From positions 62,001 to 126,000 of the forward strand of contig CAIJFI010000004.1 of assembly GCA_903819975.1 (NCBI GenBank): 64,000 nucleotides of DNA, in the 5' to 3' direction. The DNA comes from an uncultured Bacteroidota bacterium (lineage in GTDB: Bacteria > Bacteroidota > Bacteroidia > Chitinophagales > Chitinophagaceae). The stretch's first letter is position 1. Each line of letters opens with the position of its first letter. A program made the position numbers and the translations under genes. Below are positions 29,988-35,540 of the stretch, piece after piece. The notes beneath the pieces are model-generated. The model saw only the letters and a program-made list of their open reading frames with translations, was not told the origin of the DNA and did not search any database.

Positions 29988-31493
29988 CTAGGCAAAGGTA
30001 TAACTCATAGAGCCATCCTTCTCATCCTTTAATTGGATGCCCATGTCAGTCAATTGATTTCTAATTTTATCACTGGTCGCAAAATCTTTTCTAGCTTTTG
30101 CATCCTTACGGATTTCAATTAATAAATCAATGACGCCATTTAATTGTTCGCGATTCGCACCCGCTTCAATCTTAATGCCCATAATATTTTCAATAAACAA
30201 TGTCATTTGATTTTGCACAAATAACCAGGTGTCGCCACTTACCGCATCTGCTGTAATATGTTTATCTTTTAATGAATTAATGCTCGGTAATATTTCAAAC
30301 AAATTAGCAACTACTTTAGCGGTATTCATATCATCATCCATGAATATTTCTAATTCAGTAGCCCAAGTTTTTAGTTGTGCGTCTAGTGCAGCATCTGTAG
30401 CAATTGAGCCAGCAGTAAAGCTTTGCGCCTTTAACCACTCATATCCTTCCATCAAGCGTTTTAAAGCTTTTTCAGAAGCTTGAAGTGCTTCATTGCTAAA
30501 ATCTAAAGTGCCGCGATACTGAGATTGTAAGATAAAAAAGCGAACCGTCATAGGTGCATAAGCCTGTGTTAATTCCTGGTGATTGCCCGTAAACAATTCA
30601 CTTAACTTAATCACATTGTTATAGCTCTTACCCATCTTACGACCGTTAATGGTGATCATATTATTATGCATCCAATAACGCGCAGGTATCTCATGATTAC
30701 AAACATTACTTTGTGCTATTTCACATTCATGGTGTGGAAATTGTAAATCCATTCCTCCTCCATGTATATCAAACTGTTTGCCTAAATATTTTGTTGCCAT
30801 TGCAGAACACTCAATATGCCATCCTGGGAAACCCTCTCCCCATGGGCTTTGCCAACGCATGATATGTTCAATTGGGGCTTTTTTCCATAAGGCAAAATCT
30901 ACCTTATTTCGTTTCTCTTCCTGATTCTCTAACTCACGTGTTGTTTCTAATTGCTCTTCTAAATTTCTGCCACTTAAAATTCCATAAGGCTGATTTTTTT
31001 TAGAATAATCGTCATTGTATTTTACTACATCAAAATAAACCGAACCATTGCTTTCATAAGCATAGCCGTCTTTAATAATGGTTTTAATCATTTCTATTTG
31101 CTCCACAATATGTCCCGTTGCAGTAGGTTCAATACTTGGTGGCATATTGTTAAACTGCTCCATTGCCCAATGATACAAGTGTGTATACTTTTGAACCAAT
31201 TCCATTGGCTCTAACTTTTCTAAGATGGCTTTTGAAGCAATTTTGTCTTCTGCTTGTTTTCCTTCTTCCTCAAAGTGTCCTGCATCGGTAATATTACGAA
31301 CGTAACGCACTTTATAGCCCTTGTGTAATAAATAACGATATACTACATCAAAAGTGATAAAGGGGCGCGCATGGCCTAAATGACTTTCTCCACTTACAGT
31401 AGGTCCACAAACATACATGCCCACATAAGGAGCGTTAATAGGTTCGAAAACTTCTTTTTGACGAGTAAGTGAATTGTATATTTTTAGTGCCAT
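29988..31493 (-). CDS. cysS: Cysteinyl-tRNA synthetase
   Basis: A 501-residue class I synthetase. Signature motifs are [20 protein letters not shown] (HLGH as the HIGH variant, Cys as zinc ligand), WHIECSAM and HHECEIAQS (further zinc ligands), and [10 protein letters not shown] as the KMSKS loop. The C-terminal anticodon-binding domain ends with IELIRKDARxxKDF-like and [15 protein letters not shown]. Length is normal. It has its own promoter box in the 20-bp gap after the EEP gene. Confidence 0.97.
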
Positions 31494-31513: not shown

Positions 31514-32602
31514 TTATTTTTTCAATAAAAGATCGGCCATAAGCATATGGTGATCACTTAGATTTTCATCAATCTGTTCCCAAGCTTTTACATCCCAGGA
31601 TTGATTGGCTAATATATAGTCAATGCGTAATGTTGGAGAGAGCCCTAAAAAAGTTACACCCACACCAAAGCCCTTTTCTAAAAATGCGTCTTTCCAGCCA
31701 GTTGCGATTTTTCGATAGGTATAAGAACTAGGTACATCATTAAAATCTCCAGTTATAATTGCAGGATAAGTACTTTTACTTATTTGATTTTCTACAATTT
31801 CGGCCTGTACCGATCTTTCTTCAAAAGCATGTTTCATTTTTTGAAAAACACCCCATTTGTTTTTAGTTGCATCATCTATCGCTTCAAAATCGTTTTGTTT
31901 AAATCTATAAGACGCCAAATGTGTTGTATAAACCTGAATGGTATCATCTCCTTTTAAAATAGTTGCAGCAATAATACTTTCCTTGTTTGTAAAAGGAATA
32001 CGTTCTGCATGAATAATTTTGTACTTGGAATAAATAATACAGCCAGAATAATATGCAGCTTGTATGGTTTGATAATCCTTAGAGAAAAAAGAATATGGAT
32101 AATTTTTTTCAAAATATTGGGCATGATTAGCAATATCACCTTTTCGCTCATTGGTATTATATTCTTGCATACAAATGATATCTGGATTCCATTTTTGAAT
32201 GGAATAGGCAATATCCTGTGTACGCAACTTCATGGTACGATTAGGCTGTATACCATTAAAACCTCTTACATTCCAATTGATAATTCTTAAATTATTTTCT
32301 TTCTTGATTTTTGGGAAAGCAATACCTGGATGCCATCCTATTATTGCAAATAATACCTTCCATCCAACTACTAAAGTAATAGCCGAAGGCAATGCCATAA
32401 AGGGTTTTGCTATGATCCAAAAAAATAAAAATAAAATTTCAAGTGCTAATAAATAGGGCATTGCTAATCCTAAAAATCCATTGACCCAAATAATCGTAGC
32501 TGGTGAAAAAAATAATGGATATAAGATTAAAGCTGAAATAATCAGGTTTAAAAAAACAAGTGTTTTTTTTCCAACAATTCTTATGCGTGATTTTTTAGGC
32601 AT
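31514..32602 (-). CDS. Membrane-anchored endonuclease/exonuclease/phosphatase-family protein
   Basis: A 362-residue protein with about three N-terminal hydrophobic segments (residues 12-85) followed by an EEP domain (about 105-360). Core motifs are [18 protein letters not shown] (metal-binding Glu), [18 protein letters not shown] and [10 protein letters not shown] (catalytic His). The fold includes nucleases and phospho- or sphingolipid hydrolases; membrane anchoring favours a lipid or envelope substrate, but this is open. Its start overlaps the stop of the pseudo-rhomboid gene by one base (TAATG), so the two are translationally linked. Confidence 0.85.
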
Positions 32603-33288
32603 TAACTTTTAGGAGCTAAACTATTATTTAACAAATGTAATAGTTGATGCATCCATTTTCCTAAATCTTTACCTCTTTTTAATAACATTATATAAATACC
32701 GCCAGTAGCTCCGCCTACCAGTGTTGCAACATCTACGGCAACAGGTTCGTCTAATAAAAAATAGCCTTGTAAAAGCAAATAAATAATTCCTAAAATCCAA
32801 AGAGAAATACCTCCCGCAATATTGGTTAAAAACTTATGATTGGGTATCAATGCCATTGCGGCAATTACAATTGCAGTAATACTTACCCCAGCGCCCATTA
32901 ATGGTTGATTTGATCCTACTATTAAAAAGCTAATTGCTCCCAAAATTCCAGCATAAAAATAGATAGGGAATAAATGTTTGTTGGCTCCTTTCACTTGCAT
33001 GGTATAACTAAACACGCTCATCCAAATCATATTTCCAAATAATACCCAAAAACCATCATGCACCCAATTATAAGACAATAAGGACCATGGATGTGTCATC
33101 CATTTGTTGTCAATAGTTAAGGGTTGAAATATTTGAGCATAAAATTGTTCAAGTGGCAAGCTCTCTAAATAATAAACCACTTTAATCAATCCCAGTATTA
33201 CATAACCCACCAAATTAATGGCCAATAAGGCAACTAAAGTATTGTTATCGGCTCCTAATAATGGTTTTTGATCTACTTCTGATTGCAT
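32602..33288 (-). CDS. Catalytically dead rhomboid-like membrane protein
   Basis: A 228-residue multi-pass protein aligned by eye with the rhomboid encoded just upstream. It keeps the WVHDGFWVLFGNM segment (rhomboid loop 1 and TM2 with Asn86) but where the active enzyme has GASG it has GAGVS (132-136), placing Gly134 at the Ser position, and where the active enzyme has HVGG it has LVGG (190-193). Both catalytic residues are therefore missing. Ser136 two residues later is unlikely to substitute. It sits between the active rhomboid (11 bp upstream) and the EEP gene (1-bp overlap). It may regulate or present substrates, as eukaryotic pseudo-rhomboids do; this is inference. Confidence 0.8.
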   Translation of the reverse strand: MQSEVDQKPLLGADNNTLVALLAINLVGYVILGLIKVVYYLESLPLEQFYAQIFQPLTIDNKWMTHPWSLLSYNWVHDGFWVLFGNMIWMSVFSYTMQVKGANKHLFPIYFYAGILGAISFLIVGSNQPLMGAGVSITAIVIAAMALIPNHKFLTNIAGGISLWILGIIYLLLQGYFLLDEPVAVDVATLVGGATGGIYIMLLKRGKDLGKWMHQLLHLLNNSLAPKS

Positions 33289-33299
33289 TTAATTTAAGT

Positions 33300-34022
33300 T
33301 TAGTAACGTCTAGTGTTATTGCGTTTCCATATGTATACCAATACAAAGCCTACTAATGCACCTCCCACATGAGCCCATCTTGCAACATTGTCTCCTGCCG
33401 AATTTCTTAACGCAAAAAACAATTCATACGAGAAATATAAAATACCTAACCACTTTGCTTTCATTGGAATAAAGAAGTAGATGTAGATATAGGTATTAGG
33501 AAATAAATAAACAAAGGCAATTAAAATACCAAACACAGCGCCACTAGCTCCAAGTGTTGCAACGTCTACCCTTGCTTTATACCTTAACATAAATTCAGCA
33601 GCGTCTGCAGTTTGAGATGCACCTGACACTATTAATTGATGATAATATTTTGTTGCATCCATTAATTCATAGGACAAAATTCCTAAGTGAATCATAGCTG
33701 CCCCAACTCCACATGAAAAATAAAATAATAAGAATTGTTTTGGTCCCCAAATGTTTTCTAGTATCGCACCAAACATCCATAATGCTAACATGTTTCCAAA
33801 AATATGACCTAGGTCGCCATGCAAAAACATATGCGTTATTAATTGCCATGGTCTAAAAAGTTCACTTTGAAATGCATGCAATGCTAAAACATCTTCAAAA
33901 GAAAAACTACTCATTGGACCACCAATTGATTTTTGTGCTAAAAAAAACAAACCGTTAATGATAAGTAAGTTTTTTATTACAACAGGCAAAACATTAAATC
34001 CAGTGGGTCTAAACTGCGTCAT
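33300..34022 (-). CDS. Rhomboid-family intramembrane serine protease
   Basis: A 240-residue protein with about six membrane segments. Conserved features are HMFLHGDLGHIFGNM (64-78, with oxyanion Asn77), the catalytic Ser160 in GASGAVFG, and the catalytic His218 in AHVGGALVGF. Rhomboids cut membrane helices of substrate proteins within the inner membrane. It starts 11 bp after rlmD and is followed 11 bp later by a non-catalytic paralogue, so the run rlmD, rhomboid, pseudo-rhomboid, EEP is probably one transcript. Substrates are unknown. Confidence 0.93.
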   Translation of the reverse strand: MTQFRPTGFNVLPVVIKNLLIINGLFFLAQKSIGGPMSSFSFEDVLALHAFQSELFRPWQLITHMFLHGDLGHIFGNMLALWMFGAILENIWGPKQFLLFYFSCGVGAAMIHLGILSYELMDATKYYHQLIVSGASQTADAAEFMLRYKARVDVATLGASGAVFGILIAFVYLFPNTYIYIYFFIPMKAKWLGILYFSYELFFALRNSAGDNVARWAHVGGALVGFVLVYIWKRNNTRRY

Positions 34023-34033
34023 TATATTATTGT

Positions 34034-35455
34034 TTACTTTCTTTTTAATTGTACTACGTTTTCAATATGTAGTGTGTGTGGAAACATATCCACTGGTTGA
34101 ATCTTAGTTACTTTATATTTTTCATCTAACAAAGCAAGGTCTCTTGCTTGTGTGGCAGGATTACAGCTTACATAAACTATGGTTGGCGCTTCCATCTCTA
34201 ATAACTTGCGCACTAACTTTTCGTGCATGCCCGCGCGTGGTGGATCGGTAATAATTACATCTGGTTTTCCGTGGGTTTCAAAAAAGGCATCATCACAAAT
34301 ATCAATAACGTCACCTGCAAAAAACGCAGTGTCCGTTAAGTTATTCATGCTTGCATTTTCTTTTGCATCTTCAATTGCATCTGCAACAAACTCAACGCCA
34401 ACAATCTTCTTAGCTTGTTTACTACAAAATATGCCAATGCTTCCTGTTCCACAATACAAATCATATACCACTTCCTTTCCAGATAATTCTGCAAAGTCTC
34501 TTGTAACTTGATATAAACGCTCAGCTTGTTTTGAGTTGGTTTGGAAAAAAGATTTTGGACTTATTTTAAAAGCAAAGTCCTCTAACATTTCGGTGATATA
34601 TCCATTTCCAAAAAACACTTGTGGCACCAGGTCTTGCATACTATCATTACGCTTTGTATTAATAGTATATAACAAAGTGGTGATTTGAGGGAACTGCTTT
34701 AATAGTAAGTTAAGTAGGGCTTCTCTTTTTTCTTTATCCTCGTATCCTAAAATTAAATTAACCATCCATTGTCCATTCGTGGTGTTACGCACAAACATAT
34801 TTCGAACCCAACCCTGATGTTGTTTGATATTATAAAAAGGCATATCGTTGTCAATTGCAAATTGCGCAACTGCCTTTCTCATTAAATTTGTAGGTTCAAT
34901 TTGTAAATAACAAGTATCAATCTCTACCACTTTTTCAAAAAAGCCTCTTGCATGAAAACCACCTGCTCCAGGCGACTTAACCATTTCTTCTCCCGAAGCC
35001 TTCATGGCTTTGAACGCATCAAATGGAATAAATTTTTCGGTAGCAAATGTATATTCAACCTTGTTCCTATATCCTTCGGTTGCCGCTGCTCCTAAAATAG
35101 GTGCTATTTCGGGCAATTCTACTTTCGCAATTCTGGTTAAATTATCTACAACCTGCTTATGCTTATATTTTAATTGCTGATCGTAAGGAAGCATCTGCCA
35201 TTGACAACCACCACATACTCCAAAGTGACTACAAAAAGGCTTTACCCTTATATCGGAATAACTGTGAAACTGCTTTACGAAACCTTCCGCCCAGTCGGCT
35301 TTGTTTTTTTGTAATTGTACGTCCACTACATCACCTGGTACGGCACCTTCTACAAATATAACTTTGCCGTCTACTCTTGCTAGTGACTTACCTTCGGCTG
35401 CATAGTCCTCAATAAGGACCTTTTCTAAAATGGGTTTTTGCTTGAATTTTCTCAC
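34034..35455 (-). CDS. rlmD: 23S rRNA (uracil-5-)-methyltransferase, RlmD family
   Basis: A 473-residue methyltransferase with an N-terminal TRAM domain, a [4Fe-4S] cluster motif FCSHFGVCGGCQW with a further Cys in DTCYLQ, the SAM motif YDLYCGTGSIGIF, and the catalytic Cys in YVSCNPATQARDL. These are diagnostic of RlmD/RumA-type 5-methyluridine synthases; RlmC or another site specificity is possible. The reading frame is open to 35476, but the GTG at 35455 (encoding MRKFKQKP) is preferred because a perfect promoter box lies 5 nt upstream of it and the earlier codons overlap that box. Confidence 0.88.
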   Translation of the reverse strand: MRKFKQKPILEKVLIEDYAAEGKSLARVDGKVIFVEGAVPGDVVDVQLQKNKADWAEGFVKQFHSYSDIRVKPFCSHFGVCGGCQWQMLPYDQQLKYKHKQVVDNLTRIAKVELPEIAPILGAAATEGYRNKVEYTFATEKFIPFDAFKAMKASGEEMVKSPGAGGFHARGFFEKVVEIDTCYLQIEPTNLMRKAVAQFAIDNDMPFYNIKQHQGWVRNMFVRNTTNGQWMVNLILGYEDKEKREALLNLLLKQFPQITTLLYTINTKRNDSMQDLVPQVFFGNGYITEMLEDFAFKISPKSFFQTNSKQAERLYQVTRDFAELSGKEVVYDLYCGTGSIGIFCSKQAKKIVGVEFVADAIEDAKENASMNNLTDTAFFAGDVIDICDDAFFETHGKPDVIITDPPRAGMHEKLVRKLLEMEAPTIVYVSCNPATQARDLALLDEKYKVTKIQPVDMFPHTLHIENVVQLKRK

Positions 35456-35460
35456 GGTAA

Positions 35461-35468
35461 CAAAGGTA
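35461..35468 (-). promoter_or_regulatory. TAnnTTTG promoter box 5 nt before rlmD
   Basis: TACCTTTG on the minus strand, 5 nt upstream of the GTG at 35455. It rules against the longer reading frame and predicts a leaderless mRNA. Confidence 0.55.
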
Positions 35469-35540
35469 CTCAACACGGCGTATATTTATAGTAAATGGTG
35501 CTATAATTTAACTTGTCCATTTAATTTATATTTTTACAAA

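Follow-up and report, generated by a model that had tools for sequence, protein, structure and literature searches.

A predicted rhomboid pseudoprotease beside an active rhomboid in an operon of Chitinophagaceae

In this paper we describe two adjacent rhomboid genes in a 64,000-nucleotide stretch of DNA (the window) from an uncultured freshwater member of the Chitinophagaceae. The first, rhomboid A, is a predicted active intramembrane protease, and the second, rhomboid B, keeps the rhomboid fold in its predicted structure but has no catalytic dyad. The repeated loss of this dyad among relatives, the purifying selection on the gene and its persistence in small genomes lead us to describe B as a predicted bacterial rhomboid pseudoprotease, which is retained and has evolved repeatedly. 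That the dead copy is kept and that the same loss recurs in relatives suggests that it has a useful job other than cutting. We give about even chances to the reading that B is a retained pseudoprotease beside an always-active A, which binds membrane clients or acts as a scaffold for A or FtsH.

The locus and its two rhomboids

The minus strand carries, in this order, the genes for a uracil methyltransferase, A, B, an EEP hydrolase and a cysteinyl-tRNA synthetase (cysS). They are tightly spaced, with 11 nt between the methyltransferase gene and A, 11 nt between A and B and 20 nt between EEP and cysS, and the EEP ATG and the B stop codon have one base in common. The A-B distance and the B/EEP overlap had both been read correctly from the sequence alone. 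The region of that sequence-only reading (31514-35455) extends into the methyltransferase gene, which is not part of the pair. The features are:

34034-35476, minus strand: uracil-5-methyltransferase gene of the RlmD/TrmA type (PF05958, 75.1 bits), operon context only
33300-34022, minus strand: rhomboid A, 240 aa (PF01694, 102.1 bits), predicted active intramembrane serine protease
33543-33545, minus strand: codon of Ser160 of A (motif GASGA), from sequence and alignment
33369-33371, minus strand: codon of His218 of A (motif AHVGG), from sequence and alignment
32602-33288, minus strand: rhomboid B, 228 aa (PF01694, 44.2 bits; GlpG fold, Z 18), without dyad and without C-terminal DUF6576, predicted pseudoprotease
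32887-32889, minus strand: codon of Gly134 of B, in the catalytic-Ser column, from sequence and alignment
32722-32724, minus strand: codon of Thr189 of B, in the catalytic-His column, from sequence and alignment
31514-32602, minus strand: EEP hydrolase, 362 aa, with a hydrophobic N-terminal part (PF03372, 80.2 bits)
29988-31493, minus strand: downstream gene whose translation we take to be cysteinyl-tRNA synthetase (cysS), operon context only

Promoter and terminator scans of the locus gave no excess over shuffles. The window genome comprises 2.3 Mb in 18 contigs. Its named relatives, both MAGs and isolates, bear the names Sediminibacterium, Chitinophagaceae or Bacteroidetes, so its genus is probably Sediminibacterium-like, within the Chitinophagaceae. 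The cysS neighbour is retained in relatives. The same genome has a third rhomboid on another contig (C2; L002:1384-2034), which is apparently intact, with GASGA and AHL motifs, and is adjoined by a 154-aa gene that presumably resembles RlmH.

Both A and B score above the curated cut-off of the Rhomboid family (PF01694, 22.6 bits), and they share 22% identity in a pairwise alignment. The Ser (TM4) and His (TM6) dyad of active rhomboid proteases (S54) is present in A and absent in B. In a joint alignment A has S160 and H218 together with the His150- and Asn154-type residues (GlpG numbering). In B the Ser column holds G134, the His column T189 and the His150 column V82, and H77 is kept at the His145 column and N86 at the Asn154 column. 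The sequence-only reading had already named Ser160 and His218 of A and Gly134 of B, and the alignment confirms them. It was also right that B has lost the catalytic His, but the residue it gave, Leu190, is not the one in that column; the conclusion is unchanged.

When solved structures were searched by sequence, A had no relative at E up to 0.01 and nothing credible came up for B at E up to 1; the fold of B was therefore assigned by fold search. The AlphaFold model of B, based on 48 aligned sequences, has a pLDDT of 86 and a six-helix, GlpG-like fold. Its best match with Foldseek and VIA-align is GlpG (Z 18.1, rmsd 3.0, 166 residues), with iRhom1 next (Z 16.0), followed by iRhom2 and the Derlins (Derlin-1, 13.2). 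The Derlin family profile does not match B, for which PF01694 is the sole Pfam match at E up to 1. G134 sits at the start of the helix 133-147 (TM4), and the model restores no Ser/His dyad. The earlier suggestion that B keeps the rhomboid fold thus agrees with both the Pfam score and the model. Since the modelled fold fits GlpG and the dyad columns hold G134 and T189, B is predicted to have retained the fold and lost the dyad, and most likely has no protease activity. The model of A has a pLDDT of 67, which is low confidence, and was left out of the analysis.

It is highly improbable that B is still a protease through another nucleophile or base. Ser136 lies two residues past Gly134, and 14 of the 31 B proteins of the same genus retain the His. 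In the window B, however, the TM6 column lacks a His, other members have Gly or Ala at residue 136, and this residue would face another side of the TM4 helix. In some dead B proteins (L065-L069, L114 and L125) the former Ser position is charged, being occupied by Glu, Lys or Asp.

Loss of the dyad and of the DUF6576 tail

Elsewhere in the order, in families other than Chitinophagaceae, the dyad of B is intact at all 16 loci. Among other genera of the family it is intact in 22 of 57 loci (18/47, and 4/10 further ones, L214-L222 and L253), a set found mostly with an EEP query and so biased to loci with EEP. None of the 31 same-genus loci has it, nor do any of 62 further distinct named relatives (80 minus 18 duplicates), which were found with a dead-B alignment and are therefore biased to dead B. 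A keeps all four of its residues in 87 of 88 rows, and the remaining row is a fragment with gaps at these positions. Against this constancy of A, the retention of the dyad by B in 0/31 and 0/62 cannot be put down to chance. The dead B is also found in a cultured species, Sediminibacterium goheungense DSM 28323 (L204), which carries the Gly variant.

Across the phylum, 40 loci of DUF6576-tailed rhomboids were compared. The one from Chitinophagaceae is dead, and 36 of the other 39 keep both Ser and His. Taken with the 16 intact loci found elsewhere in the order, this makes the ancestral B look like an active protease. The three dead B-type rhomboids outside Chitinophagaceae (L237, L250 and L254, in families f35, f48 and f22) are apparently separate losses.

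On a 68-row tree whose branches below 80 were collapsed, parsimony calls for no fewer than 8 changes of the dyad within the family, or for 17 losses if regain is disallowed. A 90-row tree (94 B loci minus 4 without sequence) gives 11 changes, or again 17 losses without regain. These counts assume the tree, and losses are inseparable from regains because Gly can become Ser by one base change. Three members with both Ser and His (L080, L081 and L083) are placed among dead B proteins on the trees.

The B proteins of relatives, for example at L053 and L070, carry a C-terminal DUF6576 tail. We assigned B to the same orthologous family as the DUF6576-tailed rhomboids of Bacteroidota by position and by a B profile. 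Those proteins likewise lie beside A, and often beside EEP, but they are mostly intact proteases with the tail present, whereas the window B is tailless. No DUF6576 match exists anywhere in the window genome, which is the sole exception among 118 near-complete Bacteroidota genomes sampled. The domain is found in 52 of 59 genomes of the order and in 36 of 61 genomes of the genus, and the 25 genus genomes without it are all at most 2.6 Mb. From this restriction to small genomes we conclude that a small-genome, Sediminibacterium-type clade lost both tail and dyad but kept the six-helix body.

Selection on B and conservation of the operon

Over 240 close pairs the median dN/dS is 0.055 for A (227 usable pairs), 0.126 for B and 0.068 for EEP (231 usable pairs), some genomes occurring twice. 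By this measure the rate of B is about twice that of A, and, set against two housekeeping genes, its distances are greater inside its own genus than outside it. This faster evolution also fits relaxed constraint. The dead B is nevertheless under purifying selection, freer than its neighbours yet clearly constrained. A B match is found in 54 of 60 relatives.

One explanation would be that B is a dying gene, kept only for its position in the middle of the operon, with its loss punished by polar effects on essential neighbours. The operon does include cysS and the methyltransferase gene, B overlaps EEP, B is the fastest evolving of A, B and EEP, and both its dyad and its tail have decayed. We nonetheless consider this explanation unlikely. 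A dN/dS of about 0.13 is far below 1, all 20 same-genus genomes that are at least 90% complete have a B match free of internal stops, and W68, W81, N103, P108, G132, P149, W212 and other residues are invariant in 48 rows. Furthermore, the A-B pair is kept at other loci of other genera with no cysS adjoining.

The constraint on B is distributed unevenly along the protein. Among the helix halves of dead B in the genus, conservation is lowest in the active-site half of TM6 (1.82 bits, compared with 2.99 for intact B and 3.49 for A). The active-site half of TM4 has 2.79 bits in dead B against 3.38. The N-terminal segment, TM3 and the C-tail of dead B stay well conserved. With the membrane halves defined by analogy to the GlpG topology, dead B showed no significant displacement of conservation towards the cytosolic half when compared with A (p 0.33), and a marginal one when compared with intact B (p 0.053).

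In the survey of Bacteroidota loci the pairing of A and B, on whose conservation the sequence-only reading depended, proves to be conserved and widespread. An A gene is found no more than 150 nt upstream of B in 29/30 loci of the genus, 55/57 of the family, 11/16 of the order and 20/23 of the phylum. An EEP gene follows B at no more than 200 nt in 29/30, 49/57, 10/16 and 11/23 of these, respectively. The order A-B-EEP is old in Bacteroidia. Twelve family genomes with EEP without adjoining rhomboids, or with no EEP match, were searched again; in nine of them rhomboid matches were clustered elsewhere, and all nine loci fetched show A followed by B. In the outgroup loci L042, L223 and L261 mutL lies upstream, so that the methyltransferase gene and cysS look like later neighbours.

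B might instead be a regulatory subunit of A, forming a heterodimer that limits or directs the cutting by A and not itself acting as a client receptor. That A is always intact while B decays, and that A is so often found immediately upstream of B, are in its favour. But there is no specific covariation of rates between A and B: over 59 loci it is 0.06 (p 0.23), and within subsets 0.34 and 0.43, with control pairs at similar levels and with sign and size varying with the subset. B also occurs without an adjoining A in four loci of the order (L039, L043, L048 and L051). We find this possibility doubtful, though less so than that of a dying gene.

The EEP hydrolase belongs to the EEP superfamily, with a PF03372 score well above the cut-off of 24.5 bits. 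N111, D286, N288, D328 and H351, which we take to be metal-binding or catalytic residues, are invariant in 202 aligned rows (duplicates included). Because this core is invariant, the protein is probably an ordinary active hydrolase that is translated with B. Any functional link to B beyond co-expression is a guess. So is the role in lipid hydrolysis that the sequence-only reading proposed, as the Pfam placement stops at Exo_endo_phos. Tandem EEP pairs after B are common in relatives (L070, L075, L078, L079, L206 and L211), and the window has a single EEP gene.

Could B serve the EEP hydrolase, by anchoring, maturation or stabilisation, with A beside it incidentally? The overlap of the two genes and the frequent EEP downstream of B would fit, the family count coming mostly from the EEP-query set, as would a B-EEP rate covariation of 0.49 after controlling for two housekeeping genes. 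But a control pair is as strong, EEP covarying with the methyltransferase at 0.53 given CysS. In addition, EEP is not seen beside many DUF6576 rhomboids outside the class, and EEP homologues are also found without the A-B pair. We judge such a service to be about as improbable as the dying gene.

A proposed role for B and its relation to known systems

The history of B can be read as follows. An old Bacteroidia operon comprises two rhomboids, A and a DUF6576-tailed B, with an EEP hydrolase behind them. In Chitinophagaceae the dyad of B was lost several times separately, with fold and reading frame under purifying selection, and in the small-genome Sediminibacterium-type clade the tail was lost as well. 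The ancestral B may have had both cutting and holding roles, and in Chitinophagaceae its cutting may have become dispensable, with A always there to cut. The dyad-less B might thin the membrane and hold transmembrane clients, and it might hand these clients to A, to FtsH or to both, or tune A by direct contact. The client-binding or scaffold step is suggested by analogy with Derlins, iRhoms and YqgP. The earlier interpretation is partly supported: an active and an inactive rhomboid do stand next to each other in a conserved pairing, and the dead paralogue may, as that reading proposed, regulate the active protease or present substrates. The ancestral activity of B and its many inactivations were beyond what the sequence alone could reveal.

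Rhomboid pseudoproteases are known mostly from eukaryotes, where they are ancient, and a non-proteolytic role has already been described for a bacterial rhomboid. Like iRhoms, B has a rhomboid fold without the dyad. iRhoms differ in being animal proteins with ADAM17 as partner and with a large domain inserted in the rhomboid core, the iRhom homology domain (also named in the part available of PMC12615303); the first loop of the B model spans only about 38 residues (42-79). Derlins, Dfm1 and Der1 are dyad-less rhomboid folds that move membrane proteins, but they work with eukaryotic ERAD partners and B has no match to their Pfam family.

A bacterial parallel is YqgP (GluP) of Bacillus subtilis, which presents a membrane protein to FtsH independently of proteolysis; according to the text available to us, the inactive S288A variant still presents MgtE (PMC7231995). 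As described there, YqgP is itself an intact protease whose N-terminal domain senses metal, whereas B is a separate, naturally dead paralogue beside an active rhomboid. In Shigella sonnei, GlpG and Rhom7 are likewise two rhomboids of one bacterium and act in membrane-protein quality control, but both are active, and the available part of that paper describes no one-operon pairing (PMC7232013). The accessible sections of two papers on actinobacterial rhomboids describe no such pair either (PMC4467639, PMC2989971). Our search of the literature on inactive bacterial rhomboids and Bacteroidota, which left subscription journals mostly outside, found no report of such a pair. Within that literature, a natural bacterial lineage of dead rhomboids that arose repeatedly beside an intact partner appears to be new.

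More tentatively, Chitinophagaceae may have evolved, many times from one operon, a bacterial counterpart of Derlins and iRhoms, a dedicated dead receptor beside a live protease. If this is true, the family offers a natural series of intact, half-dead and fully dead stages in which the passage from protease to pseudoprotease can be watched. The change is repeated, and recent enough to compare intact and dead B in sister genera, beside an intact A. It bears on the question why rhomboid pseudoproteases are so common, a prevalence that the part available of a review ascribes to membrane thinning and client recognition (PMC12615303). With this operon the role of the rhomboid fold without catalysis can be tested directly, and at least one species with a dead B, S. 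goheungense, is in culture.

Two segments of the pair stand out within the genus. Between core helices 3 and 4, A carries a long and highly variable insert (approximately residues 117-155). The N-terminal LLGADNN of B (residues 10-18; window 33235-33261) is near-invariant and is a possible partner-binding segment; residues 1-14 of the model are of low confidence.
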